From a virus, in IMG/VR virus record IMGVR_UViG_3300030329_004544, positions 1 through 44,932 of that record: a stretch of DNA of 44,932 bases; one strand, given 5' to 3'. Under the pieces are notes generated by a model, which was not told where the DNA came from, ran no database searches, and was given only the letters and a program-made list of their open reading frames with translations. Positions 811 to 15,267 of this stretch are shown here, in pieces (the first letter of the stretch is position 1; each line of letters opens with the position of its first letter). The translations under genes and the position numbers were made by a program.

Positions 811-1074
811 ATGACTACCCCCAAGAAAGAAAAGCCAAGAAAGAAGAAGAAAAAGGTAAATGAAGAGCAATTACACGCCGCCCGCCTCTATAAGAAGGCA
901 TGGGATAAGCTATTTGCGCAGCGACCGCCTTTTGCCCAACAAGAGATTATTGATGACCCGCAAGGTCGCCGCTCATCCGAACTCGCCCACGAAGTAAGTA
1001 AGTTAGTTGAGGCATGGATATATGAAGAAGAGCATGGGAGCTTTAATGATAGTGATAATGATTGGAAAGATTAA
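811..1074 (+). CDS. small basic-N-terminus hypothetical protein
   Basis: I do not recognise this 87-residue protein. Residues 4-16 are a lysine/arginine-rich tail (PKKEKPRKKKKK), followed by a helical-looking segment and an acidic C terminus (FNDSDNDWKD). The polarised charge suggests a nucleic-acid-associated or adaptor protein, but no motif proves it. The first ATG follows a -10-like TATATT by 6 nt and has no nearby Shine-Dalgarno sequence, so a leaderless start is likely. It is the first of a run of small same-strand genes leading to the RuvB-like ATPase. Confidence 0.7.
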   Translation: MTTPKKEKPRKKKKKVNEEQLHAARLYKKAWDKLFAQRPPFAQQEIIDDPQGRRSSELAHEVSKLVEAWIYEEEHGSFNDSDNDWKD

Positions 1075-1102
1075 TTAATTTAATTTTATTCATTTTATTT
1101 AC

Positions 1103-1131
1103 TTGACCTTACTCTGGAAACCCTTTATACT
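1103..1131 (+). promoter_or_regulatory. leaderless sigma-70 promoter for 1138 gene
   Basis: TTGACC (1103-1108), 17-bp spacer, TATACT (1126-1131), then 6 nt to the ATG. Transcription is predicted to begin on the start codon. Confidence 0.8.
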
Positions 1132-1137
1132 GGTCTT

Positions 1138-1431
1138 ATGAGTGAACGAAAGAAGAAGCGTAAGTCAGGTGCAGGGCGTAAGAAAGGAAGCGTTAGCTTC
1201 TGCATGGTTCCCCTCACGGAATTAACTGCCAAGTTGCCTAGTGGTGCTATTATCGTAGTGAGTAGGAAGTTCTGCGAATCTATGGGCATCGAAGGGCAAC
1301 CTGTTGTATCGACCCCAACGATGATGATGCCCCTTGCTACTGCTGCCAAGGCTAATGCCGTACAGGTTACTGACTTGAATGAAAGTAACAAAGAAGAACC
1401 CGCGCCAGACTTTAGCGTTGACAACTGGTAG
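1138..1431 (+). CDS. hypothetical protein with basic GRKKG N-terminus
   Basis: A 97-residue protein of unknown family. The first 20 residues are strongly basic (RKKKRKSGAGRKKGS, reminiscent of an AT-hook or DNA-contacting tail), the middle is hydrophobic and probably beta-rich (AIIVVSRKF), and the tail is acidic. The promoter ends 6 nt before the ATG. The promoter for the next gene (TTGACA at 1418) is embedded in this gene's last codons, so the two are adjacent but independently transcribed. Confidence 0.7.
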   Translation: MSERKKKRKSGAGRKKGSVSFCMVPLTELTAKLPSGAIIVVSRKFCESMGIEGQPVVSTPTMMMPLATAAKANAVQVTDLNESNKEEPAPDFSVDNW

Positions 1432-1446
1432 GATAACCCTTATACT
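1418..1446 (+). promoter_or_regulatory. consensus sigma-70 promoter for RuvB-like gene
   Basis: Perfect TTGACA (1418-1423), 17-bp spacer, TATACT (1441-1446), 8 nt to the ATG at 1455. The -35 lies inside the preceding coding sequence. Confidence 0.85.
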
Positions 1447-1454
1447 TGAGAACG

Positions 1455-2429
1455 ATGACTGATACCTACTTCCCAGACATAATCGGACAAAACCGTGTTA
1501 AGAAAGCGTTAGGCTTTTATATTGACGGTTTCCAAGAAACCAACTGCATCCCGCATTTGATGTTTACTGCTCCTCGCGGGTGCGGTAAAACGACGATGGC
1601 GACTGCGATGGCAAAGAACCTTATCGGGCCTGACGGTACGATTAAGCCTCTTATTACTATCAACTGTTCCACCATTAAGAGTCTCAAACAGTTCTTCAAC
1701 ATGATTGTGATTCCGCACATGGTCGAGCGTGACGCTACCGTGCTGTTCGATGAGTGTTCCGAATTGCCCAAGGATGTGACGATGGCACTGTTGACCATCA
1801 CCAATCCCAATCCAGAGAACATGAACGAGTTCTCCTATGAGGATTACAACGTAGTATTCGATTTTCGGCGTTTGAGCTTTATGTTCGCCACTACCGAAGG
1901 TCAGTCCATCTTCCATGCACTCATGGACAGAATGGAACGCATCGACTTGGAAGAATATAAGTTGGATGAGCTTGGCAAGATTGTCCTACTTGGCCTAGAT
2001 GGTTACACTGTCGATGAAAAGACGTTAGAGAGCATCTCAAGCGTTCTACGGGGCAACGCAAGAGCGGGTCAGAAGATGGCGATGAAGATGAAGTTGCATC
2101 TCGATGCCCAAGGTAAGACCCATTTTGATAACGAGGATTGGAAGTCTCTTATGGACAAGCTCGGCATCCTGCCGCTTGGCATCTCCGTCCAAGAACTTAA
2201 CCTCATGCGTTACATGGCTCGCAAGAAGGCTACACGCCTCACCGAGCTTGCCGCTATCACTGGACTCTCCAAGGGAGCAATCCAGAAGGACTACGAGTTG
2301 TACCTGTCCAAGATGGGTCTGATGGAGATTCAGCCAGAGGGACGCTCACTAACCACTAAAGGATTGGAGTATCTTAATGAGCTTGATGGAGTTAAAAAGC
2401 ACAAGTCTAACAAGACTAGTAAAAAATAA
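1455..2429 (+). CDS. RuvB-like AAA+ ATPase (Holliday-junction helicase-like)
   Basis: This 324-residue AAA+ protein has a Walker A loop (APRGCGKTT, residues 39-47), a Walker B (VLFDE, 96-100) and a sensor/arginine-finger-like stretch (FMFATTEG ... MDRMER). A C-terminal winged-helix-like region ends in GRSLTTKGLEYL, the arrangement of RuvB. RuvB drives Holliday-junction branch migration as a hexameric ring, usually with RuvA; no RuvA is visible here. A TTG at 1446 would extend the frame by three codons but overlaps the -10 box, so I prefer the ATG at 1455. A clamp-loader-like AAA+ role is the main alternative. Confidence 0.8.
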   Translation: MTDTYFPDIIGQNRVKKALGFYIDGFQETNCIPHLMFTAPRGCGKTTMATAMAKNLIGPDGTIKPLITINCSTIKSLKQFFNMIVIPHMVERDATVLFDECSELPKDVTMALLTITNPNPENMNEFSYEDYNVVFDFRRLSFMFATTEGQSIFHALMDRMERIDLEEYKLDELGKIVLLGLDGYTVDEKTLESISSVLRGNARAGQKMAMKMKLHLDAQGKTHFDNEDWKSLMDKLGILPLGISVQELNLMRYMARKKATRLTELAAITGLSKGAIQKDYELYLSKMGLMEIQPEGRSLTTKGLEYLNELDGVKKHKSNKTSKK

Positions 2430-3054: not shown

Positions 3055-3091
3055 GCTTGACACCGCCGGGACCGGTCCCGCGACGTCAAGC
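3055..3091 (+). repeat. composite palindrome E1 (GGGACCGGTCCC core)
   Basis: GCTTGACA ... GGGACCGGTCCC (3068-3079) ... GTCAAGC, followed by seven T. It could form a long stem-loop and act as a terminator on the plus strand. Confidence 0.75.
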
Positions 3092-3108
3092 TTTTTTTGT
3101 TGCGGGGT

Positions 3109-3117
3109 TGTGTATAA
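3109..3117 (-). other. DnaA-box-like site
   Basis: TGTGTATAA, the complement of TTATACACA, between palindrome E1 and the promoter of the 3162 gene. Confidence 0.45.
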
Positions 3118-3125
3118 GTTTGTTG

Positions 3126-3154
3126 TTGACATAGAAACGGAAGTGTAGTAGACT
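3126..3154 (+). promoter_or_regulatory. sigma-70 promoter for 3162 gene pair
   Basis: TTGACA (3126-3131), 17-bp spacer, TAGACT (3149-3154), 7 nt to ATGATG at 3162. Confidence 0.8.
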
Positions 3155-3161
3155 GGTATAC

Positions 3162-3365
3162 ATGATGAACGAACTAGATCAACTCAAAGAAGAAGTGGCC
3201 ATGGATTCCTTTGGTCGTAGTCGTCAGCTGGCCTTGGCAGCCGGACAGTGTGTCAAGTGCGGCACTTACGATCTCAACTTCCGCGACGAACCATCTATGC
3301 GTGAGTACAAACTCACCGTATGGTGTCAGTCGTGCCAAGACGAATTCTTCGGAGTGGAGGAATAA
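3162..3365 (+). CDS. small zinc-ribbon-like protein
   Basis: A 67-residue protein with two Cys-x2-Cys knuckles (CVKC near residue 30 and CQSC near residue 55), the pattern of a four-cysteine zinc ribbon. The N terminus is helical and acidic. The gene begins ATGATG and is preceded by a promoter only 7 nt away, so the mRNA is predicted to be leaderless. Its stop codon overlaps the start of the next gene (TAATG) and its last codons supply that gene's ribosome-binding site, so the pair is translationally coupled. The function is unknown; DNA or protein binding is an inference from the zinc ribbon. Confidence 0.75.
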   Translation: MMNELDQLKEEVAMDSFGRSRQLALAAGQCVKCGTYDLNFRDEPSMREYKLTVWCQSCQDEFFGVEE

Positions 3366-3868
3366 TGAACGCTAGCATTTTTAAACGCGAGGTATACCGT
3401 AACTTGCATTTCAGGGACGAGACCGTCTATTCCGTACGTAAGGACGGCCTTGTGGAGGGGCATGCCCTGATGGTTATCCTTGATGGCAGTACTGCTAAGC
3501 CAGTCAAACTTGCGGTCGGCCCTAAGGGTAACGAGCGCGTACGTGAAGAGCAGCGCAAGAACGTGCACGCTGTAGTGCGCGGGCATATGGTCAACGCCGT
3601 GTGGTATTATAATGACATGGATGCATTCGAACTGGGCCACGCAAAGGACGCCTGCAGAGACTGGCAAGAACATTACATGGAAGAGCGCGAGGGATATCGA
3701 TGGCTTGAGCTTGTATACAATCCCTACAAGTACAAAACGTTCATGACTCGTGACACAGATCCTTTTAAAGGTCCTGAAGACGTGTACGAGCCAATCCTTA
3801 CTGCACGCCAAGTGATCATCGGCCCCAAGTGCTGGGCGCAGGTTCCAGTCAATCAGGAAGTCAATTAA
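3365..3868 (+). CDS. hypothetical protein, coupled to zinc-ribbon gene
   Basis: A 167-residue protein I do not recognise. It has a beta-rich N-terminal half and aromatic stretches (VWYYNDMDAF, YRWLELVYNPYKYKTF). The start is the ATG at 3365 because GGAGG lies 4 nt upstream and the ATG overlaps the previous stop. The longer reading frame from 3320 would begin inside the zinc-ribbon gene. This gene uses a clear Shine-Dalgarno site, unlike its promoter-proximal partner, which fits its position as second cistron. A strong terminator follows. Confidence 0.75.
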   Translation: MNASIFKREVYRNLHFRDETVYSVRKDGLVEGHALMVILDGSTAKPVKLAVGPKGNERVREEQRKNVHAVVRGHMVNAVWYYNDMDAFELGHAKDACRDWQEHYMEEREGYRWLELVYNPYKYKTFMTRDTDPFKGPEDVYEPILTARQVIIGPKCWAQVPVNQEVN

Positions 3869-3882
3869 TATTTACGTCCATC

Positions 3883-3934
3883 AGGCGGGCCCGGGGTTTT
3901 TATGTGTTTGACCCGGGTCCGCCTCCTTTTTTTT
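3883..3934 (+). terminator. intrinsic terminator
   Basis: A 13-bp stem (3883-3895 with 3912-3924, one G-U pair) is followed by a run of T at 3926-3934. It ends the 3162-3868 operon. The gap 3869-4245 holds this terminator, palindrome E2, a DnaA-box-like site and the next promoter, but no gene. Confidence 0.9.
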
Positions 3935-3972
3935 GCTTGACACGTCGGGACCGGTCCCGCGACCTGTCAAGC
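3935..3972 (+). repeat. composite palindrome E2
   Basis: GCTTGACA ... GGGACCGGTCCC (3947-3958) ... TGTCAAGC, then seven T. It lies directly behind the terminator. Confidence 0.8.
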
Positions 3973-3977
3973 TTTTT

Positions 3978-3986
3978 TTATTCACA
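3978..3986 (+). other. DnaA-box-like site
   Basis: TTATTCACA, followed after three bases by TGTGAA in the opposite orientation. Confidence 0.5.
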
Positions 3987-4171
3987 GCCTGTGAAGATTT
4001 CGTATTTTGGCCGAATTTCTCACCGGAGAAAACACCCCTTTTTACGAAACTTGCCGATCACTTTTTGCGTTTTTTGGTTGGCAAATGGATTTGTCGCTCA
4101 GAAATGAGCGGCTAATTAACGGCAACAATTAGGGGATAAAAAAAAGATGCTTGTGACGTGCATTTTATGCT

Positions 4172-4200
4172 TGCAAGTGATTTGGATGTATGAGATAATG
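4172..4200 (+). promoter_or_regulatory. sigma-70 promoter for DUF932-like gene
   Basis: TTGCAA (4172-4177), 17-bp spacer, GATAAT (4195-4200). The predicted start near 4207 gives a leader of about 40 nt, unlike the leaderless cassettes. Confidence 0.65.
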
Positions 4201-4245
4201 GTTTTAGTCGATTGAGACATAACATCTAACGAAAGAGAACGAACT

Positions 4246-5181
4246 ATGCCTATTACCGCAAAACAAAGCAAAAACAAAGACTGGGATTTCACCGTAGCGC
4301 AGGAGGAGCTTTTCCTGCCTGACGGCAAAAAGTCCGGTTTCTTCGCATCCCGCCGCCTCGACAACAACGAGGTGCTGGGCTGTCACACTAGCCGCTACGG
4401 CATCGTCCAGAACGGCGACCTCATCGAGAAAGCAGAAAGTGCTTTCGCTCGCAAGGGTCTTGGCGACTACGAGCGCAACATCTATGTGACTGACGGCGGA
4501 GCCAAGCTGCGCGTCAATTACGATTTCCAAGGCCACGATATTGAAGTGCCAGAAGTGGGTGACAAGATGGGCTTTCGCCTGACCTTGCAAAACTCGTTTG
4601 ACCGCTCCTTGCGCGTGTCCTTTGCGCTCGGTATGCTTCGCCTTGTTTGCACCAACGGTATGCAGACGCTTGAGAAAGAACTGGATATGCTCAAGAAGCA
4701 CTCCAAGAAGTTCGACCTCAACGCCTTGCTAACCGATGACGCCATCGACAAGGCACTCGCCTCGTTCACCAAAACGGGCAACACCTACGCCGCGCTGGCT
4801 CGCGTTGGCATTACTCAGGAGCAAGGCATCTTTGCCCTGCAAAACCAAGCCAACACTGGTTTGATTTCTGACAAGGTGCGCGAGGGTATCGCAAGCGTGT
4901 GGAACAACCCACGCGAGGATGGTGCTGACGGTTCGGTTGGTGATGACCGCAACCTTTACCAACTCTACAACGCTGCCACGCAGTACCTCACCAGTGACAA
5001 CTTGGTTGACAAGAAAACTGGCGATGCGGTCGGCACGTTTGAGTCCACTCGCTTCGAGTACGCGAACCGTGTTAGCTCGCAACTGCTCAAGCGGTTCAAC
5101 CTCGCCAGCGATAACCCCAAGCGGTTTGACAAGCTGGTTGCGGTTGCCAAGGCTGACGGCGTAAAGGTCGAGAACAACTAG
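4246..5181 (+). CDS. DUF932 phage/plasmid-like protein
   Basis: This 311-residue protein resembles the DUF932 family, a phage/plasmid-like group of unknown biochemical role. Features include an early RYGIVQN motif, a glycine-rich GGAKLRVNYDF strand, QNSFDRSLRVSF and the conserved RLVCTNGM segment. No enzymatic residues can be assigned. It is monocistronic, with its own promoter and a strong terminator. The coding sequence is clearly more GC-rich than the structural genes on the right. Wide distribution of the family on phages and plasmids suggests an early or accessory role, but this is inference. Confidence 0.75.
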   Translation: MPITAKQSKNKDWDFTVAQEELFLPDGKKSGFFASRRLDNNEVLGCHTSRYGIVQNGDLIEKAESAFARKGLGDYERNIYVTDGGAKLRVNYDFQGHDIEVPEVGDKMGFRLTLQNSFDRSLRVSFALGMLRLVCTNGMQTLEKELDMLKKHSKKFDLNALLTDDAIDKALASFTKTGNTYAALARVGITQEQGIFALQNQANTGLISDKVREGIASVWNNPREDGADGSVGDDRNLYQLYNAATQYLTSDNLVDKKTGDAVGTFESTRFEYANRVSSQLLKRFNLASDNPKRFDKLVAVAKADGVKVENN

Positions 5182-5199
5182 GCCAAACCTACAAACACC

Positions 5200-5226
5200 C
5201 CCCGCCTTCGGGCGGGGATTTTTTTT
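5200..5226 (+). terminator. intrinsic terminator with TTCG loop
   Basis: CCCCGCC-TTCG-GGCGGGG (5200-5217) followed by eight T. It ends the DUF932-like transcription unit. Confidence 0.95.
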
Positions 5227-5245
5227 GCTATTGGGGAAACTTTTT

Positions 5246-5283
5246 GCTTGACACCCGCGGGACCGGTCCCGCCCTTGTCAAGC
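5246..5283 (+). repeat. composite palindrome E3
   Basis: GCTTGACA ... GGGACCGGTCCC (5259-5270) ... TGTCAAGC. There is no T-run behind it, so it does not look like a simple terminator. Confidence 0.75.
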
Positions 5284-5315
5284 CTAAACTTAATTAAAAA
5301 AAAGTAAAAAAAGAC

Positions 5316-5344
5316 TTGCACTGAAATCGGATGTACGGTATACT
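5316..5344 (+). promoter_or_regulatory. sigma-70 promoter of candidate structured RNA
   Basis: TTGCAC (5316-5321), 17-bp spacer, TATACT (5339-5344) behind an A-rich tract. The predicted start is near 5351. Confidence 0.75.
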
Positions 5345-5350
5345 ATTAAA

Positions 5351-5720
5351 ACAGTGAGGGTAACACCTCCACGATCTTTGAGACAATTTTAGCATAGGTG
5401 AAGTAACAAACGACCGTTAAGAGGTAGCGGCCTATGCGACAATTTGAGGACGGCGACGGCTGACCTCAAGGGAATGGCTGAACAACCCTCCATCATAAGG
5501 GGTAAGGCACAGGGGCGCGCGTTAGAGTGCAATCGTATGAGGCGTGTGTTTCTGGTAGACTGGTAAACTTGAACTGTATTGTGTACTGGTCTTGATGGTA
5601 ATGCAGCAATCCATCTTCCCACTAACTTTGATTTTTGCTGGTACTTCCAGTATTGAAATCCTGCGGTTGCTAAACGCATTAAAGAGAGAGAAAGCAACAA
5701 CGCCTAATCCGCCGCTTGAT
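5351..5720 (+). ncRNA. candidate long structured non-coding RNA
   Basis: About 450 bp between a good promoter and the next gene have no convincing plus-strand reading frame but many complementary segments: GAGG/CCTC (5356 and 5366), GCATAGG/CCTATGC (5392-5398 with 5431-5437), TGAGG/CCTCA (5445-5449 with 5464-5468), AGGG/CCCT (5469 and 5486), CTGG/CCAG near 5638-5650, and GTTGCT/AGCAAC around 5666-5698. GACAATTT occurs on both sides of the 7-bp stem. I could not match it to tmRNA, RNase P RNA or a group I intron. The 3' end is not clear; a T-rich tract begins near 5719. Confidence 0.45.
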
Positions 5721-5736
5721 TTTATTAATTTTTATG

Positions 5737-5765
5737 TTGACTACGAATTGGATATCTAGTAACAT
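5737..5765 (+). promoter_or_regulatory. sigma-70-like promoter for 5804 gene
   Basis: TTGACT (5737-5742), 17-bp spacer, TAACAT (5760-5765). It implies a leader of about 32 nt before the ATG at 5804. Confidence 0.55.
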
Positions 5766-5803
5766 AGAAACAGTGCGAGACAAAAACCTAAACTAAAAAA
5801 CTG

Positions 5804-6271
5804 ATGAACAATAACCTATCTTATACTAACTACATCACTGGCACAGAACTTGAGAACGGAAAGATTCTCCTGTATGCTGGTAAAACCCGCAACGGAGTTG
5901 ATTACCGCAAAAAGGGTAAAATGGCTTGCGGATTCATCGCTGGCGTTGGCCTAGATGGTCGTCTGTTTGACACCGTCCATTCCAACCCCAACACCAAAAA
6001 CGATAAGCTCACCGAGCAGCGTCACATTAACACGATTCGTGCCGTGGCGAAATTGCTCCCTGACGTTATCGTTGCTGGTAACGTGTACGATGATGGCTTT
6101 TACGGGGGAACCGTTTCGTCCATCAGTCCTAGCGTCTACGACAAAGTCGTAAGCTGGGTGCAGGGTACGCGCACCATGACAGAAAAACGCATGGTGGCGA
6201 ACAAGCGGAAGCTGGCTCGAAAGCTCGCTCAAGTGAAGCGAGCTAGGGAAGCAAACAAGGCTAACGCTTAA
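5804..6271 (+). CDS. hypothetical protein with basic C-terminal helix
   Basis: A 155-residue protein of unknown family. The N-terminal two-thirds looks like a mixed alpha/beta domain (KILLYAGKTRNGVDYRKKG, VIVAGNVYDDGFYGG). The last 35 residues are a strongly basic, alanine-rich helix (KRMVANKRKLARKLAQVKRA) typical of a nucleic-acid-binding tail. It sits downstream of the long non-coding region, so that region could alternatively be its regulatory leader. A 9-bp hairpin follows the stop. Confidence 0.7.
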   Translation: MNNNLSYTNYITGTELENGKILLYAGKTRNGVDYRKKGKMACGFIAGVGLDGRLFDTVHSNPNTKNDKLTEQRHINTIRAVAKLLPDVIVAGNVYDDGFYGGTVSSISPSVYDKVVSWVQGTRTMTEKRMVANKRKLARKLAQVKRAREANKANA

Positions 6272-6278
6272 CCCTAAC

Positions 6279-6306
6279 GAGGGGAGGGAAACCTCCCCTC
6301 TTGACT
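6279..6306 (+). terminator. terminator hairpin overlapping next promoter
   Basis: GAGGGGAGG-GAAA-CCTCCCCTC (6279-6300). The bases directly after it are the TTGACT -35 of the next gene, so one junction both ends and begins transcription. The U-tract is short. Confidence 0.7.
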
Positions 6307-6329
6307 TTTAACCCGAAACCCCGTATAAT
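6301..6329 (+). promoter_or_regulatory. leaderless promoter for cell-wall hydrolase
   Basis: TTGACT (6301-6306), 17-bp spacer, perfect TATAAT (6324-6329), 7 nt to ATG at 6337. The TTTAACCC after the -35 recurs at 9563 and 11179. Confidence 0.85.
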
Positions 6330-6336
6330 TTTAGTC

Positions 6337-6837
6337 ATGGAACGAATACACTACATCATCGGCATCATTATCTTTTTAATTATTAGCGTTACCGCCGCAG
6401 CAGATGAAGCACTCACAAGGGACGAGCGAGTTGTTGCTCTTACGATTCTCGGAGAAGCGCGAGGTGAGGGCGAAAACGGTATGTACGCCGTTGCTTGCGT
6501 TATTGAAAAGCGTATGCAGGAAAGCACGGTGAACCATACTCCCGCAGAGGTGTGTTTGCAACCTTCACAGTTCAGCATTTGGAACGCTGGCAGAGGTAAG
6601 GTTAAGAAAGAAAGTCAGCTTTATTATTTGTGGGAATCCAAGAGCAAGGACTATGCAAGACAGTTAGCCCGTGTTGTATGTGATAAAGATAAAAACCTTC
6701 AGCACTCTGTTGTTGGTCATGCAAATCATTATCATACTCACTCCGCTAAACCAAGTTGGTCGAGAGGGGCAAAGCCCGTTGCAAAGGTGGGCAAGCATCG
6801 TTTCTTCAAGCTGCGCTGGGCTTCAAATAGAAAATAA
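6337..6837 (+). CDS. SleB-type cell-wall hydrolase (Hydrolase_2), secreted endolysin candidate
   Basis: This 166-residue protein has the hallmarks of the SleB/CwlJ hydrolase family: an LGEARGEGENGMYAVACVI helix with the likely catalytic Glu, and a C-terminal GHANHYHTHSAKPSWSRG segment. Family members cleave peptidoglycan glycan or cortex bonds. Residues 1-22 form a signal sequence or signal anchor (IIGIIIFLIISVTAAADEA), so export by the host Sec system, as in signal-endolysins, is likely. The start is the ATG at 6337: the TTG at 6301 is the -35 hexamer itself. No holin is adjacent. Confidence 0.85.
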   Translation: MERIHYIIGIIIFLIISVTAAADEALTRDERVVALTILGEARGEGENGMYAVACVIEKRMQESTVNHTPAEVCLQPSQFSIWNAGRGKVKKESQLYYLWESKSKDYARQLARVVCDKDKNLQHSVVGHANHYHTHSAKPSWSRGAKPVAKVGKHRFFKLRWASNRK

Positions 6838-6874
6838 CTTCAAATATTAAATAGACGCAAATAACTATTATTTT

Positions 6875-6884
6875 GACCGGTCCC
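6875..6884 (+). repeat. degenerate GACCGGTC palindrome (E4)
   Basis: TTGACCGGTCCCG retains the inner palindrome but has lost the flanking arms of the other copies. Confidence 0.5.
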
Positions 6885-6893
6885 GAATAAGGA

Positions 6894-6929
6894 CAAAAAA
6901 AAGAGGGGCCTTTCGGCCCCTTGATTTTT
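6894..6929. terminator. bidirectional terminator between convergent genes
   Basis: GGGGCC-TTTC-GGCCCC (6905-6920) has an A-run on the left and TTGATTTTT on the right, so it can stop transcription in both directions. Confidence 0.9.
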
Positions 6930-7374
6930 AGGCATATCGCTCAACGAACCATTCCTGAACGCCCTCGGCGCAAAACTCGTTAATGAGATCCAACTCACCA
7001 CGGTCTAGCGTTCTTTCGAGTCCGTTTTCGCATACGGTTGCGGATTCCATATATGGTGCTGATCCTGCTTGAGGATCACACTCCGCATCTTCCAACTCAC
7101 AAGCAACAACGCTTTCAAACAATTGTTCTGCGCGCGCTTGGCGTTTAAGAAATGCTACCCTTTGCGGGTATTCCTGAAACAACCAAAGCGCGTATTCGTT
7201 CAGTGTCTCGCTTCTTTCGTTATCGCTTTGATCGTACTCATACGCGATTGTACCTAGGTTCTGTTTGTACCAAGTGGAGAAATCTAACATCTCGCTTGCG
7301 CTCAACGCGTTAAAGTCTCCCTTGAGTGTTACCCCACTTGCCTGTGGGCCGCCCTGTTTGTTTGTTACTATCAT
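6928..7374 (-). CDS. hypothetical acidic protein (leftward)
   Basis: A 148-residue leftward protein that I do not recognise. It is acidic and mostly helical (ALSASEMLDFSTWYKQNLG, VAFLKRQARAEQLFESVVACELEDAECD). It looks genuine for two reasons: its stop sits exactly at a bidirectional terminator facing the hydrolase gene, and the composition is protein-like where the overlapping plus-strand frames are not. It is one of few leftward genes in the window. No good leftward promoter was found, and the ATG at 7374 has only a weak GGA upstream. Confidence 0.75.
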   Translation of the reverse strand: MIVTNKQGGPQASGVTLKGDFNALSASEMLDFSTWYKQNLGTIAYEYDQSDNERSETLNEYALWLFQEYPQRVAFLKRQARAEQLFESVVACELEDAECDPQAGSAPYMESATVCENGLERTLDRGELDLINEFCAEGVQEWFVERYA

Positions 7375-8821: not shown

Positions 8822-8842
8822 GTACAATTTTTATATTTTTTT

Positions 8843-8878: not shown

Positions 8879-8884
8879 CTTTTT

Positions 8885-8893: not shown

Positions 8894-8930
8894 GGGTGTG
8901 AATATTTTTTTCATTTTGGGCGTTTTTTTT

Positions 8931-8959
8931 GTTGCGTTTTTCTGCTCAACCTGTATAAT
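8931..8959 (+). promoter_or_regulatory. leaderless promoter for ArfA-like peptide
   Basis: Perfect TATAAT (8954-8959) 6 nt before the ATG at 8966. The -35 is weak (TTGCGT at 8932, 16-bp spacer). Confidence 0.7.
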
Positions 8960-8965
8960 GCTCGC

Positions 8966-9103: not shown

Positions 9104-9118
9104 GAAAAGGCTTATTAT
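9090..9118 (+). promoter_or_regulatory. sigma-70 promoter inside end of ArfA-like gene
   Basis: TTGACT (9090-9095), 17-bp spacer, TATTAT (9113-9118), 7 nt to ATGATG at 9126. It lies largely within the ArfA-like coding sequence. Confidence 0.7.
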
Positions 9119-9125
9119 TATGAAG

Positions 9126-9554
9126 ATGATGGACGATATAAAACTCACCTACATTCCAGACGCTCACGGCTGGATAAAAGTATATTTGCAAGCACCCAAC
9201 GCGGAACTTGCCGAAGCGTGGTTCAATTCATTTTGGAATCACAACGCCACCAGCCAAGACGAGCCAGAGTGGATATTTGAAAACGAGTTAGCGTTTTGCA
9301 GCACATGGGACAAGCTAACCAACGCCATGAATGATATTTTCCTTTTCATTCTTCTTAATGATGATGAAGATGCTTTCAAAAACGAGGAAGGCGGTGCGAT
9401 GCCGTTTGCCAAGGAACTAGCCAAGGCCAAGATTGCAGAGATGGAAAAGAAAGATTCATCCATGCGTTACGGTCGCCAAGGCCACGTTTACACGATGGGC
9501 GAAGTTTACACCAACGAAGAAAAGTCATTTTCTTCTGGAACGTGTGACGTTTAA
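9126..9554 (+). CDS. hypothetical acidic protein
   Basis: A 142-residue protein of unknown family, acidic and tryptophan-rich (GWIKVYLQAPNAELAEAWF, DEPEWIFENELAFCSTW). In-frame starts at 9084 and 9120 exist, but the promoter places transcription at about 9125, making the ATGATG at 9126 the natural leaderless start. That start gives the Met-Met N terminus seen in sister cassettes. Confidence 0.65.
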   Translation: MMDDIKLTYIPDAHGWIKVYLQAPNAELAEAWFNSFWNHNATSQDEPEWIFENELAFCSTWDKLTNAMNDIFLFILLNDDEDAFKNEEGGAMPFAKELAKAKIAEMEKKDSSMRYGRQGHVYTMGEVYTNEEKSFSSGTCDV

Positions 9555-9556
9555 GC

Positions 9557-9585
9557 TTGACCTTTAACCCCAGAAAGTATAGAAT
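9557..9585 (+). promoter_or_regulatory. leaderless promoter for GP88-like gene
   Basis: TTGACC (9557-9562), 17-bp spacer, TAGAAT (9580-9585), 6 nt to ATG. TTTAACCC follows the -35, as at 6307. Confidence 0.75.
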
Positions 9586-9591
9586 CTAGTC

Positions 9592-10305
9592 ATGTTGAAA
9601 TTCAAAGATGCAAACGGCAAACTCAAGAAGATGGCAAAGAAGCTTGGCGTTAAGCTTAAAACCTTCACTCTCCCTGCGGGCTATACTTGCGGCGGTGCGA
9701 AGGATTGCCTCGCGTATGCCGACAGGAAAACGGGCAAAGTGAGAGACGGCAAAGAAACACAATTCCGTTGCTTCATGGCATCGCTCGAAGCCACGTTTCC
9801 AAGTCTCCGCGCTATGGTGTGGGAGAATTACGAGCAGTTGCAAGCGGCACTAAAAAACGGTGTTGATGCTTGCGCGGATTTGATTCACAACAGCTTGCCA
9901 AAGAAGTTTGACGTAATGCGCGTTCACGTTGGCGGCGATTACTTCAGCAAGGAGTATTTGCAAGCGTGGATTGAAGTTGCCAAGCGTAATCCCGACAAGG
10001 TGTTTTACTCTTACAGCAAGAGCTTGCATTTGTTCAAGCAATTTGCCTTACCCGAAAACCTTGTGTTGACTGCCTCCCGTGGTGGCAAGTACGATGATTT
10101 GATTGACCTCCACGCATGGAAAGAGGCGATTGTTGTATTCAGTGAAGAGGAAGCGGAAGAGCTTGACTTGGAAATTGACCACGACGATTCACACGCAGCG
10201 TTTGGCGCGGAGAATTTCGCGTTGCTCATTCACGGCACACAGCCAGCAGGGAGTGCGGCAAGCGAAGCCTTAAAAGTGATAAAGAAAAAGGCGAGGACTG
10301 CGTGA
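9592..10305 (+). CDS. GP88-family phage protein (cysteine-containing)
   Basis: This 237-residue protein resembles the phage gene-product-88 family. It has an early TFTLPAGYTCGGAKDCLAYA segment, TQFRCFMASLEA, a central MRVHVGGDYFSKEYLQAW and an FYSYSKS motif. The paired cysteines (C-x5-C plus a third in FRCF) could bind metal or an iron-sulfur cluster. The family's biochemical role is not established to my knowledge. The stop overlaps the start of a 19-residue membrane peptide (TGATG). Confidence 0.6.
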   Translation: MLKFKDANGKLKKMAKKLGVKLKTFTLPAGYTCGGAKDCLAYADRKTGKVRDGKETQFRCFMASLEATFPSLRAMVWENYEQLQAALKNGVDACADLIHNSLPKKFDVMRVHVGGDYFSKEYLQAWIEVAKRNPDKVFYSYSKSLHLFKQFALPENLVLTASRGGKYDDLIDLHAWKEAIVVFSEEEAEELDLEIDHDDSHAAFGAENFALLIHGTQPAGSAASEALKVIKKKARTA

Positions 10306-10364
10306 TGGAGTTTCTCGTCCTTGTAGCTGTCGGGTTGTATTTCGGCGCGAAACTTAGTCGATAA
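10305..10364 (+). CDS. 19-residue membrane micro-peptide
   Basis: MEFLVLVAVGLYFGAKLSR is a single hydrophobic helix with a positive C terminus. The ATG overlaps the TGA of the preceding gene, the classic arrangement for translational coupling. A similar micro-ORF lies at 12436. It is too short for statistical support, so this is tentative. Confidence 0.35.
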   Translation: MEFLVLVAVGLYFGAKLSR

Positions 10365-10380
10365 AAAATGATATTTTTTG

Positions 10381-10422
10381 CTTGACAGCCGGCGGGACCG
10401 GTCCCGCTGAGACTGAGTCTCA
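10381..10422 (+). repeat. composite palindrome E7 with GAGACT palindrome
   Basis: CTTGACA (10381-10387), GGGACCGGTCCC (10394-10405), then TGAGACTGAGTCTCA (10408-10422) in place of the TGTCAAG arm. Confidence 0.75.
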
Positions 10423-10429
10423 TTAAGAT

Positions 10430-10438
10430 TGTGAATAA
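10430..10438 (-). other. DnaA-box-like site
   Basis: TGTGAATAA followed by CTTTTTT. Confidence 0.5.
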
Positions 10439-10456
10439 CTTTTTTCAGATTTCCCC

Positions 10457-10485
10457 TTGACAAATGGGCAAACCTGTGTTATAGT
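10457..10485 (+). promoter_or_regulatory. leaderless promoter for HAD gene
   Basis: Perfect TTGACA (10457-10462), 17-bp spacer, TATAGT (10480-10485), 6 nt to ATGATG. Confidence 0.85.
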
Positions 10486-10491
10486 ATTTAC

Positions 10492-10932
10492 ATGATGAAC
10501 GAGAAATTGAATCCACTTTTCGATTTAGACGGAACCCTTATCCGTGAGGAGCGCGGCTCTGACCGTCTATTTGACTTTCTGAAACCTCACGCCATTCTTA
10601 ACCTCACAGAGGATGACCTTACTCCTCTCGGTGTTTTGGTTAGAGACTCTGGCAAAGAATTTGACATTCTTACCGCTCGCGGCCCAGAGAATGCACAGTT
10701 CATCCGCATAGCCCTTGAAGCTCTCGGATTCAACGTTGGCCGAATCGTCACCGTAGGCGTAGACGTTAACGAGCCAAAGGATTGGGCCAAGGTTAGCAGC
10801 AAACGAGTTGCAGCCAAGAAAATCAGAATTGCCAAATTCGTCCAAAGGAAATTGGTTGACAACGACCCTAGGAATCTGGTAGGATTAGGCGAGTTAGGAG
10901 AGCTAGTAGCTCAAGACCAAACGGAGTTTTAA
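10492..10932 (+). CDS. HAD-superfamily phosphatase
   Basis: A 146-residue protein with HAD motif I at FDLDGTL (nucleophile Asp11, acid/base Asp13), motif II in DILTARGP, a candidate lysine in the KKIRIAKF region and a terminal acidic motif VDNDP. HAD enzymes hydrolyse phosphate esters. In phages they serve as polynucleotide 3'-phosphatases or nucleotidases, and the LTARG context fits a small nucleotide or polynucleotide phosphatase. No kinase domain is fused. It heads a two-gene unit with the 10934 gene, one base after its stop. Confidence 0.8.
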   Translation: MMNEKLNPLFDLDGTLIREERGSDRLFDFLKPHAILNLTEDDLTPLGVLVRDSGKEFDILTARGPENAQFIRIALEALGFNVGRIVTVGVDVNEPKDWAKVSSKRVAAKKIRIAKFVQRKLVDNDPRNLVGLGELGELVAQDQTEF

Positions 10933-10933
10933 G

Positions 10934-11176
10934 ATGAGAATAAGGATTGAACCAAACGAACAAGCAAGCCAGCGAACTAAAAACCGTATCAAAGAACGCG
11001 GCCCGTGGTTTGTTATAGAACGTAAGCACGACAGCCGAACCCTTGGCCTTATCGGTAAAGGCGACACGGAAAGCTGGCTAGTCGCAGAAGTAGATTTTCC
11101 AGATGGTGACAGATGGACAGGCTGGCTGCCCGCTAATGAATTTAATGTTGTTGAAACTGAAGGATTTTGGTCTTGA
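10934..11176 (+). CDS. small hypothetical protein downstream of HAD gene
   Basis: An 80-residue protein of unknown family, probably a small beta-rich domain (PWFVIERKHDSRTLGLIGKG, WLVAEVDFPDGDRWTGWLPA). The ATG lies two bases after the HAD stop codon (TAAG-ATG), so translation is probably coupled. The last codons contain the -35 of the next promoter. Confidence 0.7.
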   Translation: MRIRIEPNEQASQRTKNRIKERGPWFVIERKHDSRTLGLIGKGDTESWLVAEVDFPDGDRWTGWLPANEFNVVETEGFWS

Positions 11177-11201
11177 CATTTAACCAGAAAACCCATATAC
11201 T
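11173..11201 (+). promoter_or_regulatory. sigma-70 promoter for membrane-peptide pair
   Basis: Perfect TTGACA (11173-11178), 17-bp spacer, TATACT (11196-11201), 8 nt to ATGATG at 11210. TTTAACC follows the -35. Confidence 0.85.
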
Positions 11202-11209
11202 ATAAACAG

Positions 11210-11323
11210 ATGATGAGAACACTATTGAACCTATTGGATGAGTTGTGCTGGCCTTTGATTATGCTTGTCGGCATATTCTTGGGAGTATTTCACATAATCC
11301 TTCCTTTAATTATTTGGCTTTAA
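11210..11323 (+). CDS. 37-residue membrane peptide
   Basis: MMRTLLNLLDELCWPLIMLV begins a peptide with one long hydrophobic segment (residues 14-37) and almost no charged residues after position 11. A strong promoter ending 8 nt upstream supports its reality despite the small size. It could be a membrane-active regulator or a holin-like peptide; no family was recognised. Confidence 0.6.
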   Translation: MMRTLLNLLDELCWPLIMLVGIFLGVFHIILPLIIWL

Positions 11324-11337
11324 CAAAAAACAAACCT

Positions 11338-11454
11338 ATGCAAACTAAAACTAAAAAAGATTGGACGCAAACTCTGTTTGTGGGGAACATCGCAACCGTA
11401 ACATTTATTGTCGGCGTAATCGTCGGTCAATTTGTCAAAGTCATTATTATGTGA
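11338..11454 (+). CDS. 38-residue membrane peptide
   Basis: MQTKTKKDWTQTLFVGNIAT is followed by a transmembrane helix (VTFIVGVIVGQFVKVIIM). The basic N terminus predicts a cytoplasmic N terminus. It follows the other membrane peptide by 14 nt and probably shares its transcript. The frame is open upstream to 11245, but that part overlaps the previous gene in another frame and is rejected. Confidence 0.55.
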   Translation: MQTKTKKDWTQTLFVGNIATVTFIVGVIVGQFVKVIIM

Positions 11455-11462
11455 TTTTGATA

Positions 11463-11565
11463 GGGGGTCTGAAAACCTACGCTTGAGCCTTTGAGGTCTG
11501 ACCTGTAGCGAAACAGCGTGACGACTACGACCCCCACCCCCCTAGGGGTACCCCCCGGGGGGGTC
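11463..11565 (+). other. GC-rich palindromic spacer, possible structured RNA
   Basis: GGGGGTC (11463-11469) pairs with GACCCCC (11529-11535), closing a 73-nt segment with internal complementary stretches. It is followed by tandem GC palindromes (CCCCTAGGGG and ACCCCCCGGGGGGGT). A similar CCCCTAGGGGGTACCCC tract is at 12501-12517. The function is unknown. Confidence 0.4.
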
Positions 11566-11576
11566 TAAACTTTTTG

Positions 11577-11622
11577 CTTGACAGGCGGCGGGACCGGTCC
11601 CGCTTATTGCGACTCGGTCTCA
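11577..11622 (+). repeat. composite palindrome E8
   Basis: CTTGACA (11577-11583), GGGACCGGTCCC (11590-11601), then an imperfect GCGACTCGGTCTC palindrome and a T-run. Confidence 0.75.
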
Positions 11623-11648
11623 GTAAAACTTTTTTTAATTATCTTATG

Positions 11649-11685
11649 GGTAGGACTGCGGATGTCCCACCCTCTGTGCTATACT
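11649..11685 (+). promoter_or_regulatory. operator-promoter copy 4
   Basis: GGTAGGAC (11649-11656), TGCGGAT, GTCCCACC (11664-11671), extended -10 TGC-TATACT (11680-11685), 6 nt to ATGATG. It lies 3.5 kb from copies 1-3. Confidence 0.85.
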
Positions 11686-11691
11686 GTACGC

Positions 11692-11895
11692 ATGATGATT
11701 AAAGAACATAAGAAACCAACATACACCCTTTGGAACGGTGTGCAACTCATCGCCACCTACCCACACACACGTGAGGGCATGAACGCAGCCATGCTACGTG
11801 CATCAGAGCTAGGCATAGGGGCCAAGCTATACTCATCACGTGATGACCTAGTGTGGAGCGCACGCATGGCAGATGACATGATGGATTGTGAATAA
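11692..11895 (+). CDS. small hypothetical protein of operator regulon
   Basis: A 67-residue protein of unknown family (YTLWNGVQLIATYPHTREGM, MLRASELGIGAKLYSSRDDL), with a compact alpha/beta look. The start is set by the promoter; the frame continues upstream through the operator to 11578. Its last three codons (TGT GAA TAA) form a DnaA-box-like site, so that site is partly coding. Confidence 0.65.
   Translation: MMIKEHKKPTYTLWNGVQLIATYPHTREGMNAAMLRASELGIGAKLYSSRDDLVWSARMADDMMDCE
11887..11895 (-). other. DnaA-box-like site overlapping stop codon
   Basis: TGTGAATAA spans the last codons and stop of the 11692 gene. Confidence 0.45.
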
Positions 11896-11912
11896 CTTTC
11901 TTAAAAAACCGC

Positions 11913-11941
11913 TTGACTTTTTAGCATAATTGAGGTATAGT
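11913..11941 (+). promoter_or_regulatory. sigma-70 promoter for 11951 gene
   Basis: TTGACT (11913-11918), 17-bp spacer, TATAGT (11936-11941). Six nt later comes ATAATG, where sister promoters have ATGATG, so the leader would be three nucleotides. Confidence 0.8.
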
Positions 11942-11950
11942 ATTAACATA

Positions 11951-12223
11951 ATGAAGAACGAAATGACAGTAGAACAAGAAGCTCAAATCCTCCTCAACAA
12001 CGAGGTGCGTGTGACATTCGCCAAAAGCCAGTTATTCGGCCAAACAGGTATCGTCGAGGCCATCATGGCAGACGGTCGCACGTTAGACATTAAGATGTCT
12101 GACGGCAAGAACGCCTTTCTTGATGTCACCTTTGTTGGTGAAATCCAAGAGCGTACACAGTACGCCAAGACTTCTCAAAGTCTCGGCCCAATCGCTAACA
12201 GTGTTGTAAAGTCTACCCTTTAA
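11951..12223 (+). CDS. small hypothetical protein, possible SH3-like fold
   Basis: A 90-residue protein of unknown family. The central part (VRVTFAKSQLFGQTGIVEAI, RTLDIKMSDGKNAFLDVTFV) alternates strands and glycines in the way of small SH3-like domains, similar in style to the 8571 product. The first codon of the expected ATGATG is ATA, so only the second ATG is used. The stop is one base before the next start. Confidence 0.7.
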   Translation: MKNEMTVEQEAQILLNNEVRVTFAKSQLFGQTGIVEAIMADGRTLDIKMSDGKNAFLDVTFVGEIQERTQYAKTSQSLGPIANSVVKSTL

Positions 12224-12224
12224 G

Positions 12225-12434
12225 ATGATAACAAACAAACAACCCACCGTTGAGCTTCATGACGGTGAATTTATGACCATCGACGGAGTGCTGCACTCTA
12301 TTATCAGCCACCATTCATTTGATGATTTTGGTGCTACGTTGGACACTTTCAAAGTGATTAACTACGCAGGATTGATTCGGGAGATTTATTCTTTTGATGA
12401 GTGCGAAACATTCACCTTTGACAACGGAGAATAG
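12225..12434 (+). CDS. small acidic hypothetical protein
   Basis: A 69-residue, acidic, probably beta-rich protein (VELHDGEFMTIDGVLHSIIS, LIREIYSFDECETFTFDNGE). No family was recognised. It follows the 11951 gene by one base and precedes a membrane micro-ORF by one base, forming a tight three-gene unit. Confidence 0.65.
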   Translation: MITNKQPTVELHDGEFMTIDGVLHSIISHHSFDDFGATLDTFKVINYAGLIREIYSFDECETFTFDNGE

Positions 12435-12435
12435 A

Positions 12436-12507
12436 ATGGAAGTATTTATTATTTTTATTTTGATATGGTTTTTCGTGTGGTGTGCCATCGGCACCCTGAC
12501 CCCCTAG
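12436..12507 (+). CDS. 23-residue membrane micro-peptide
   Basis: MEVFIIFILIWFFVWCAIGT, then LTP: a single very hydrophobic helix. It starts one base after the stop of the 12225 gene, so translational coupling is plausible, and it parallels the 19-residue peptide at 10305. The coding end runs into a CCCCTAGGGG palindrome. Confidence 0.35.
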   Translation: MEVFIIFILIWFFVWCAIGTLTP

Positions 12508-12527
12508 GGGGTACCCCACCCCCCTTA

Positions 12528-12580
12528 TTGAGACCCAGTCTCATCGGGACCGGTCCCGCTTATTGAGACTAAGTCTCATT
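12528..12580 (+). repeat. composite palindrome E9 flanked by two GAGACT palindromes
   Basis: GAGACCCAGTCTC (12530-12542), GGGACCGGTCCC (12546-12557) and GAGACTAAGTCTC (12565-12577) in series. No CTTGACA arm is present. Confidence 0.75.
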
Positions 12581-12680: not shown

Positions 12681-12881
12681 ATGAGAAACCTACCAACACT
12701 GCCTGAAGCCACTTGGGAAATTACTTTTGACAACGACAGCACGATGTTCATCGCTGGTCGTGATGAAGAACACGCTCGCCGTGTAGTGGAAAACAACAAA
12801 GGCTTCAGCCGCTGGCGTCGTACCGAGGATGAGCCTTGGCAGATTCGCACCATAAAAAAGATTGAAAGAGTTACTTGGTAG
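12681..12881 (+). CDS. small hypothetical protein
   Basis: A 66-residue protein rich in tryptophan and charged residues (EATWEITFDNDSTMFIAGRD, GFSRWRRTEDEPWQIRTIKK). The pattern recalls small phage proteins that turn up next to regulatory genes, but no family is recognised. The stop codon lies inside the fifth operator copy, so a repressor bound there would sit over this gene's 3' end. Confidence 0.65.
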   Translation: MRNLPTLPEATWEITFDNDSTMFIAGRDEEHARRVVENNKGFSRWRRTEDEPWQIRTIKKIERVTW

Positions 12882-12913
12882 GACTACAGATGTCCCACCC
12901 TATGTGATATACT
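12877..12913 (+). promoter_or_regulatory. operator-promoter copy 5
   Basis: GGTAGGAC (12877-12884), TACAGAT, GTCCCACC (12892-12899), extended -10 TGA-TATACT (12908-12913). The ATG is 12 nt away, leaving a six-base leader, the only copy not strictly leaderless. Confidence 0.85.
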
Positions 12914-12925
12914 AGACGCAGTTAA

Positions 12926-13297
12926 ATGATTATGAAAGAACAAAACACTATGAAAGCAAACAACCTAATCCTTGGAGCTATCTACATCAACGCAACCACA
13001 GGCGAGCCTTGCCGCTTGGTTAACATCGTATCGTGCCAAGGCGTTTGGCTTGAGTCTTACGATGGCCAAGGTTACGGTGAACTCGTTAGCTTTGACGATT
13101 GCCACTATGCAAGCGGTGATGAGGTGCAAGACTTCCTCGATGACCTCGCCGTGTACGAAGCAAACAAGAAAGCGGATTCCCATAAAGAACTACCCGCTCC
13201 TCCTGCTGTTATCCGCATTCCTAATTATGACAAGATGTGGAACGTCCAAGGTTATTACAACGACAACGAAGGCAACGACATTCGTTGCAGAGACTAA
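12926..13297 (+). CDS. hypothetical protein of operator regulon
   Basis: At 123 residues this is the largest of the five operator-controlled products. Its first half looks like a beta-barrel (NLILGAIYINATTGEPCRLV, GVWLESYDGQGYGELVSFDD), followed by an acidic helix and a proline-rich linker. No family was recognised. Alternative in-frame ATGs at 12932 and 12950 exist; 12926 is nearest the predicted transcription start. Confidence 0.65.
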   Translation: MIMKEQNTMKANNLILGAIYINATTGEPCRLVNIVSCQGVWLESYDGQGYGELVSFDDCHYASGDEVQDFLDDLAVYEANKKADSHKELPAPPAVIRIPNYDKMWNVQGYYNDNEGNDIRCRD

Positions 13298-13520: not shown

Positions 13521-13554
13521 CCCCCATTTATGAAAAAATGAATGGGGGCGTTTT
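13521..13554 (+). terminator. probable terminator closing the early region
   Basis: CCCCCATT (13521-13528) pairs with AATGGGGG (13541-13548), then CGTTTT. The U-tract is short. The interval to 13614 is otherwise GC-rich palindromic sequence with no gene. Confidence 0.5.
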
Positions 13555-13614
13555 CTGAAAAACTGGGGGGTGGGGTCGAAATGAGTCTCCCCGAGGGTCG
13601 AAAAATCCCCCGGG

Positions 13615-14502
13615 CTATACCGATTTTAGGGGATGCGGGGGCGACTGATTGTTTTTCTTAACTTGTTCGTATTTTTTTCTAAGAACGTATTTAGCTATGT
13701 ATTTTTGAAGTTCGGATTCACTAGGTGGATTTTTGATTACGTCTATGTTTTTCTCTATCATTTCTTTTAGGCCCCAATAGGCATTTCTTTGATATTCGAT
13801 TTTTTTTCTATTTTTCGAATTAGATACGCTTTCGGAATGGACGTAATATAGATGAACGGGTGAAGTATTGTTAGTATGAGCTATAGGGGTTATGTTTTTG
13901 AATTGTTTTAGGTGATTCCACGCGATTAGATCTTCGTATCCGCAGTTATTGATTTCGTCTTCGGGAAAGAATCTGCCGTCTTCAGGAAGCAGGCTGTAAT
14001 GAAACAGTGTCGCCCACGGTCCGAATTGCAAACTTTTAGCCGCCGATTTCGCCGTTCTGATTTTCTCCTTCTTCCACCCATAGCTCGAGTCTGCTGTTGG
14101 GCATAATAATCGCTGCCAGCCGCCAACTACATATTTAGAATTATATTTTTTTGCGGTTTCGAGCATCTTGGGCCGTTCCGGTAGCATTTGATCGTCGGCA
14201 TCCATCATTAAAATCGCCGGATATTCGTCTTTATGCCTGTGACATTCTTTAATTAATTTATTTTTCGCTTGACCAACAGTGTTGGCCTTATTAAAATTAA
14301 AAAAATGTACTTTCTGGGCGGTAGATTTAGGAATATATTCTATAATTTCTAAAAGGCTTCCGTCGGTACTATGATCATTACCAATAAGAAGGATCCATTT
14401 GTGTCCCTTTAATGAATTTTCGAGGCTGTCGAGACACATTTTGAGATGCTTCTCAGCATTATATACTGATAATAACACTTGTATGCCATCTGCCGTCCAC
14501 AT
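13615..14502 (-). CDS. GT2-family glycosyltransferase
   Basis: A 295-residue leftward protein with the GT-A fold signature of GT2 enzymes: VLLSVYNAEKHLKMCLDSL at the N terminus, the nucleotide-binding IGNDHSTDGS loop and the metal-binding MMDADD motif. A GYEDLIAWN segment probably contains the catalytic base. GT2 enzymes transfer sugars from nucleotide-sugar donors. It is transcribed away from the remaining sugar genes across a 48-bp divergent gap. Likely roles are decorating phage particles or DNA, or remodelling host surface glycans. Confidence 0.9.
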   Translation of the reverse strand: MWTADGIQVLLSVYNAEKHLKMCLDSLENSLKGHKWILLIGNDHSTDGSLLEIIEYIPKSTAQKVHFFNFNKANTVGQAKNKLIKECHRHKDEYPAILMMDADDQMLPERPKMLETAKKYNSKYVVGGWQRLLCPTADSSYGWKKEKIRTAKSAAKSLQFGPWATLFHYSLLPEDGRFFPEDEINNCGYEDLIAWNHLKQFKNITPIAHTNNTSPVHLYYVHSESVSNSKNRKKIEYQRNAYWGLKEMIEKNIDVIKNPPSESELQKYIAKYVLRKKYEQVKKNNQSPPHPLKSV

Positions 14503-14514
14503 TTTCGTTTTTAG

Positions 14515-14543
14515 TTGATTTCTTTAAAGAAAAAGTATATTAT
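14515..14543 (+). promoter_or_regulatory. promoter for sugar-gene operon
   Basis: TTGATT (14515-14520), 17-bp spacer, TATTAT (14538-14543), 7 nt to the ATG at 14551. It appears to serve the packed operon to about 20.9 kb. Confidence 0.7.
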
Positions 14544-14550
14544 ATAGTAC

Positions 14551-15267
14551 ATGAAATCCTTTATATTTGCAACATCTTACATAGATTCGAGCGAAGCATA
14601 TGAAAAAAGATATTTAAAATGGATTAACTACTATAAGGGATTGCCTTTTACCGAAGATAAACCGCTTTTTTTGATGGACGATGGATCACCCGAAGAATTT
14701 ATCTCCGATTTCCCCGGAAAGTTAATCAAAGAAGATGAAATTGATGATAACTATAAAGTTCCTCAAGGTAAAGACTGGCTAGAAGACGTTAACATGTTTC
14801 ATTTTAATGAGCGAATCGGTATAGAACCAAGAGAAAATAATCCTCATCTTGGAGGGAGCACTTTAGGTTGGTATAGAAGCTTTTTTAATTCTGTTAAAAT
14901 CGCTCTAAAGTTCAAATTTGACAAAATTATCCATATCGAATCCGACGCTTATTTGATTTCTAAAAAAGTTTGTGATTTTATTGACCATTTAGACTCAGGA
15001 TGGACTACATTATACTGCCCTAAATATACTTTTCCTGAAACTTCGATACAAATCATATGTAAAGACAATTTTGATAAACTAGAAATCTTAAGGAAGGCCG
15101 ATATAAATGAATTTAAAGAGATGCAAGCTGAATGGGCGCTACCAATTACGCAATTTACAAAATCTTTCGTGGGAGATAGGTATGGAGAATCTACAGAATT
15201 ACAATTACCTTCAATAGATTATTATTGTCAGTGCAATTTAAATACAAATTTAAAATATAAAGGCTAA
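14551..15267 (+). CDS. putative glycosyltransferase-like protein
   Basis: A 238-residue protein with a nucleotide-sugar-transferase flavour: an N-terminal strand (MKSFIFATSYI), a PLFLMDDGSPEEF loop and KIIHIESDAYLI, a strand ending in a DxD-like acidic motif. I cannot place it in a numbered GT family. It opens the rightward sugar operon and its last base is the first base of the RmlA start codon, so it is very probably co-translated with that gene. Confidence 0.6.
   Translation: MKSFIFATSYIDSSEAYEKRYLKWINYYKGLPFTEDKPLFLMDDGSPEEFISDFPGKLIKEDEIDDNYKVPQGKDWLEDVNMFHFNERIGIEPRENNPHLGGSTLGWYRSFFNSVKIALKFKFDKIIHIESDAYLISKKVCDFIDHLDSGWTTLYCPKYTFPETSIQIICKDNFDKLEILRKADINEFKEMQAEWALPITQFTKSFVGDRYGESTELQLPSIDYYCQCNLNTNLKYKG

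Follow-up and report, generated by a model that had tools for sequence, protein, structure and literature searches.

The window analyzed here is a 44,932-base virus contig (positions 1 to 44,932 of IMG/VR record IMGVR_UViG_3300030329_004544), and our subject is a series of promoters in its early region that lie almost directly against start codons. We assigned early and late parts from gene content, which would place the late part from about 14.5 kb onward. The early part encodes an AAA/RuvB-like ATPase with similarity to clamp loaders, a DUF932 protein, a cell wall hydrolase, a GP88 protein, and many small unknown proteins; Pfam and PHROGs searches of most of these small early proteins yielded nothing useful. 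In the late part, a T4-type large terminase (26659-28485) is accompanied by sugar-nucleotide-type genes and other late genes. One capsid-region product, encoded at 38108-39259, has no match among cultured phages. Ten other contigs, with lengths up to 178 kb, carry a terminase of 56-91% identity to that of the window; among cultured phages the window's terminase finds matches of about 25% identity, and there is no close isolate. The family is one of uncultured, large phages with divergent members, and the family counts below cover the window together with nine related contigs.

An earlier note, made from the sequence alone, had listed sixteen early ATGs with a -10-like hexamer ending 6-8 nucleotides (nt) upstream, and this holds at every one of them. 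The distance is 6 nt at 811, 1138, 7597, 7783, 8093, 8355, 8966, 9592, 10492, and 11692, 7 nt at 3162, 6337, 9126, and 14551, and 8 nt at 1455 and 11210. The note had also given most of these promoters a TTGACN element with a 17-bp spacer, which proved too generous, as we find it at 8 of 16. These eight, on the plus strand like all promoters described here, are TTGACC-17-TATACT-6-ATG at 1103-1140 (gene 1138-1431), TTGACA-17-TATACT-8-ATG at 1418-1457 (gene 1455-2429, the AAA/RuvB-like, clamp-loader-like protein), TTGACA-17-TAGACT-7-ATGATG at 3126-3167 (gene 3162-3365), TTGACT-17-TATAAT-7-ATG at 6301-6339 (gene 6337-6837, the cell wall hydrolase, PF07486), TTGACT-17-TATTAT with ATGATG 7 nt on at 9126 (9090-9131), TTGACC-17-TAGAAT-6-ATG at 9557-9594 (gene 9592-10305, GP88, PF17338), TTGACA-17-TATAGT-6-ATGATG at 10457-10497 (gene 10492-10932), and TTGACA-17-TATACT-8-ATGATG at 11173-11215 (gene 11210-11323). 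Imperfect -35 elements accompany TTGATT-17-TATTAT-7-ATG at 14515-14553 (gene 14551-15267), ATGATG 8355 (8319-8360; TTGCAC, then TATATT at 8343-8348 and 6 nt), and TATAAT-6-ATG at 8954-8968 (gene 8966-9103; weak TTGCGT). ATG 811 (TATATT-6-ATG, 799-813) is a weak candidate with no good -35 and AGAGGA upstream. The start at 9126 is ambiguous, since in-frame ATGs also occur at 9084 and 9120; that at 9592 is supported by alignments with GP88 homologues, which begin at residue 1 or 2. Eight starts are doubled to ATGATG (3162, 7783, 8093, 8355, 9126, 10492, 11210, and 11692), as had been counted. The ninth, ATAATG, was also found, at gene 11951-12223, where TTGACT-17-TATAGT (11913-11953) ends 6 nt before ATA and 9 nt before ATG. 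The description of these units as monocistronic is correct in part, with closely linked genes following 3162, 10492, 11210, and 11951.

Strict promoters were taken as those matching 10 or more of 12 consensus letters, and we counted the ones followed by a first ATG at 5-9 nt that begins a reading frame of 30 codons or more. The early 14.6 kb holds eight such sites, 1000 dinucleotide shuffles of the same region gave a mean of 0.038 and a maximum of 1, and the late 30.3 kb holds none. A Shine-Dalgarno (SD) core precedes 1 of the 16 listed starts, about the background of 9%, compared with 13 of 35 late genes.

Counting -10-to-ATG distances across related phages, which had been proposed as a check, gave a sharp peak. 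Among 352 strict promoters in the ten family contigs, the first ATG lies at 6 nt in 58, at 5 nt in 9, at 7-9 nt in 19, 18, and 19, and at any other distance in at most 8 each; in 56 of the 58 this ATG begins an open reading frame (ORF) of 30 codons or more. The exact pattern TTGACN-17-TANNNT-6-ATG is matched 54 times across nine family records, against 0 for its reversed control, with 0 in three cultured cyanophages, 1 in T4, and 8 in the Thermus phage phiYS40 (152 kb). At orthologous promoters, such as those of 1455 and 9592, the letters between -10 and ATG differ and the leader stays at about 0-3 nt. In the relatives G002 and G008, the 1455 promoter keeps its 8 nt with other spacer letters, the 11210 promoter keeps both 8 nt and ATGATG, and the -10 of the 1138 orthologues lies 8-9 nt from ATG; G002 has 6 nt at the promoters homologous to those of 8966 and 9592, in the latter case with different letters, and G008 has the same arrangement at 10492. 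GP88-bearing contigs outside the family (including L056, L066, L038, and L067, two with T4-type rIIA genes) also have a 6-nt class, with 58 promoters against 4 at 5 nt, beside many ordinary leaders, and in some contigs of this set a 6-nt site runs directly into tRNA-like sequence.

The base preceding the start codon provides a further view of where transcripts might begin. Transcription by sigma-70 RNA polymerase preferably starts after a pyrimidine, and 41 of 56 family promoters with 6-nt spacing have a pyrimidine just 5′ of ATG (p = 0.0007 against one half), which fits a transcription start at the A of that codon. The regularity had been read as selection for leaderless translation, and selection for near-leaderless transcripts is supported by the family-wide spacing, the pyrimidine, and the scarcity of SD cores.

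The picture of uniform sigma-70 cassettes requires revision, as a second class of promoters has no -35 element and bears instead an inverted repeat, GGTRGGACTRCRGATGTCCCACC, of 23 bp, exactly 8 nt 5′ of an extended -10. This class includes 4 of the 16 listed promoters, namely those of 7597 (7554-7599; repeat 7554-7576, TATACT 7585-7590, then 6 nt to ATG), 7783 (7740-7788; repeat 7740-7762, TATACT 7771-7776, ATGATG), 8093 (8050-8098; repeat 8050-8072, TATACT 8081-8086, ATGATG), and 11692 (11649-11697; repeat 11649-11671, TATACT 11680-11685, ATGATG). A fifth has a short leader (12877-12928; repeat 12877-12899, TATACT 12908-12913, and 12 nt to ATG 12926). We searched viral contigs with the repeat core alone, so that neither spacing distance was part of the query, and obtained 37 distinct sites. 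A -10 follows exactly 8 nt on in 33 of the 37 and is nearly always of the extended TGn type, while ATG lies 6 nt past the -10 in 26 of the 37. Inverted-repeat promoters have a pyrimidine immediately 5′ of ATG in 24 of 24 cases, and ATG is codon 2 in 8 of 28 genes of this class, compared with 2% of long ORFs. A second ATG may keep the reading frame safe when a transcript begins 3 nt late, or may strengthen recognition of the 5′ end. LexA was weighed as a candidate reader of the repeat.

The same module occurs in bacterial chromosomes. The bare repeat had five exact matches in all GTDB contigs, about chance level (by our own estimate about 7 expected), and we did not count it as evidence on the host. 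One of these matches showed the full geometry, before a chromosomal gene of a Verrucomicrobiales metagenome-assembled genome (MAG), and we next counted the composite repeat/-10/ATG pattern, on which alone our GTDB evidence is based. Of 293 Verrucomicrobiales genomes, 8 contain the composite, with 22 matches in all and 0 when reversed; 298 genomes from a planctomycete class contain none, and a phylum-wide draw of 388 genomes gave 1. From these counts, we favor a verrucomicrobium as the host, with reasonable though limited confidence, and the inverted-repeat element is probably a host control element common to phage and host. In two Verrucomicrobiales genomes (L235, L242, L251), a conserved 37-residue membrane-type peptide (MKxKxxxLLTSQEGEPxWVT..CGAGFIL) is encoded behind an inverted-repeat promoter.

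Together, the spacing, its conservation, and the scarcity of SD cores strongly suggest leaderless expression of the early genes. We think it quite likely that the early region consists of small transcription units that would be read by the host's sigma-70 RNA polymerase and would yield leaderless or near-leaderless mRNAs, including an inverted-repeat class that would probably engage a host regulator. The start codon of the first gene in each unit would sit 6 (up to about 9) nt past the -10, so that the first transcribed base would be the A of AUG or one lying 1-3 nt 5′ of it, and the ribosome would recognize a 5′-terminal AUG rather than an SD sequence. Two classes share this one geometry. The first is built as TTGAC-17-TATAAT, and at several of its promoters a DnaA-type box lies near -48 or -57; the second has an extended -10 and the 23-bp inverted repeat in place of -35. 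The repeat would probably be the binding site of a regulator that also works on the chromosome of the verrucomicrobial host. More tentatively, and with somewhat less than an even chance of being right, we propose that the early block is wired to an undescribed verrucomicrobial regulator through a rigid module, repeat-8 nt- -10 -6 nt-ATG, that would couple transcription control to leaderless translation in host and phage.

Several observations weigh against this interpretation. Leaderless cassettes do not account for every early gene: 4246 and 12681 have apparent leaders some tens of nt long, and gene 5804 has a longer one (5313-5803, plus strand), with a promoter at about 5313-5345 and a manA RNA (RF01745) at 5445-5625. 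No general -10/ATG peak was seen in 325 kb of host-group contigs, a small, GC-rich sample probably not from the true host genus. A profile search of GTDB genomes with the phage terminase found no relative, and the shared promoter element is therefore what ties the phages to this host group. The cultured verrucophage P8625 has few promoters and none of leaderless layout. Finally, several host-group copies of the composite pattern are paralogous repeats, or precede short ORFs or a transposase-like gene, so not all are independent.

This last point also bears on the best-surviving alternative, that the inverted repeat is a REP-like (repetitive extragenic palindromic) or mobile verrucomicrobial element inserted beside genes and no regulator site at all. 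Some MAGs do hold multiple repeat copies, and a Y1-transposase-like ORF lies close to one copy. Insertion would not preserve the 8-nt and 6-nt spacing, however, and at most viral sites the repeat stands exactly 8 nt from the -10 and 6 nt further from ATG, with the extended -10 nearly always present; we regard this explanation as unlikely. We consider it less likely still that the spacing is unselected and arose by descent, one ancestral promoter and start-codon cassette having been copied repeatedly. Related copies are evident among the promoters of the relative G007 and among the inverted-repeat promoters, and the window holds the repeat families D1 and D4. Yet when promoters at least 72% identical were removed, the 6-nt class was still ahead, with 34 against 6 at 5 nt and 12 at 7 nt, and the orthologous spacers of 9592 and 1455 change letters and keep length; copying accounts for part of the promoter number and not for the kept geometry. 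Least probable of all, and in our judgment very improbable, is that the hexamers are A/T-rich translation enhancers or chance -10 look-alikes, with real promoters further upstream and SD-less leaders. A/T-rich upstream sequence does aid translation in SD-poor hosts, and SD scarcity is reported for some Verrucomicrobia (PMC10783764). Against this reading stand TTGAC 17 bp upstream at half of the sites, the inverted repeat at a fixed 8 nt elsewhere, the sharp 6-nt distance, and the absence of the reversed pattern from the family.

The early region also carries two kinds of short repeated element. DnaA-type boxes, TTATNCACA, occur eight times (between 3031 and 12594) against 0.6 expected and lie mostly near -57 or -48 of TTGAC promoters, as at 3109-3117 (gene 3162), 10430-10438 (gene 10492), and 11887-11895 (gene 11951); they may be origin or activator sites. 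Eight GGGACCGGTCCC palindromes (3068, 3947, 5259, 7504, 8855, 10394, 11590, and 12546, spanning 3055-12557) bound early gene blocks, and these blocks are reordered or inverted among the window, G002, and G008. Block ends fall within 60 bp of a palindrome in 7 of 14 cases in the comparison with G002 (1.3 expected, p = 5e-5) and in 3 of 6 in that with G008 (0.55 expected, p = 0.014), an excess that may partly come from alignments extending into the repeated palindrome. Most of the palindromes have the arms CTTGACA/TGTCAAG, and exact matches elsewhere occur only in the closest relatives and in IMGVR_UViG_3300025118_000005. We did not accept a reading of them as uniform terminators, as only some have a T-run.

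Outside the early region, GTGTAAT is repeated just 5′ of late genes (19292, 20887, 28489, 32339, 32809, and 43161) and is a possible late-gene signal. A putative amidotransferase/asparagine-synthase-like gene, read from the translation at 17944-19289, is apparently in two ORFs, split by a short stretch bearing an inverted repeat (CCTCGAGATGA/TCATCTCGAGG). A Group I intron (RF00028) lies at 42409-42626, upstream of the gene at 42739. The related 178-kb contig G002 has a tmRNA gene (L098:10910-11327; Rfam RF00023, 125.7 bits) with the tag EADEILAKFGYVEEEELQLAA, and tRNAs for Arg, Ile, and Leu are found in L099.

Leaderless phage genes are already known. The lambda cI mRNA is leaderless and translated from its 5′-terminal AUG, but this is one gene, whereas the layout in the window spans the early region. 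PMC3160421 also mentions leaderless initiation in lambda. In cells, "-10 adjacent to ORF" genes of Deinococcus-Thermus and TA-led bacterial genes have a -10 a few bp before the start, and an extra -35 boosts expression (PMC12340547; PMC3160421). The early starts share with these a -10 ending about 6-9 nt before the start and no SD signal above background (1/16); the described genes are cellular and belong to other phyla, and Verrucomicrobi- is not named in the main texts of PMC12340547 and PMC3160421. Among phages, T4 and T4-like cyanophages have host sigma-70-type early promoters, as here, but in T4 and the sampled cultured cyanophages the leaders are of ordinary length (about 20-30 nt) and the window's geometry is essentially absent.

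The closest precedent is phiYS40, for which a review reports that most middle and late mRNAs lack leaders (PMC3594737). Both phages would have many leaderless transcripts, and the claim that the layout is unusual for a phage needs qualifying in light of phiYS40 and of the same inverted-repeat/-10/ATG arrangement in Verrucomicrobiales chromosomes. In phiYS40, however, it is the middle and late genes that lack leaders, and leaderless genes abound in its host phylum, whereas in the window the early region has the leaderless layout, the late part has no strict site and often has SD cores, and there is an additional inverted-repeat class. The terminase matches listed include no phiYS40 or Thermus record, and no sequence kinship between the two was seen there. 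Since phiYS40 has leaderless middle and late genes and the order is reversed here, we count the finding as a variant of a known phenomenon, its novelty being leaderless early genes with late genes that often bear SD sites. If true, a phage lineage with leaderless early, and not late, genes would allow the conditions and reasons for viral avoidance of SD initiation to be tested directly, and the promoters would predict a regulator in the host, as well as the host group itself, for phages without a cultured relative. It is also a warning that gene callers reliant on SD sequences will misplace starts in these phages.

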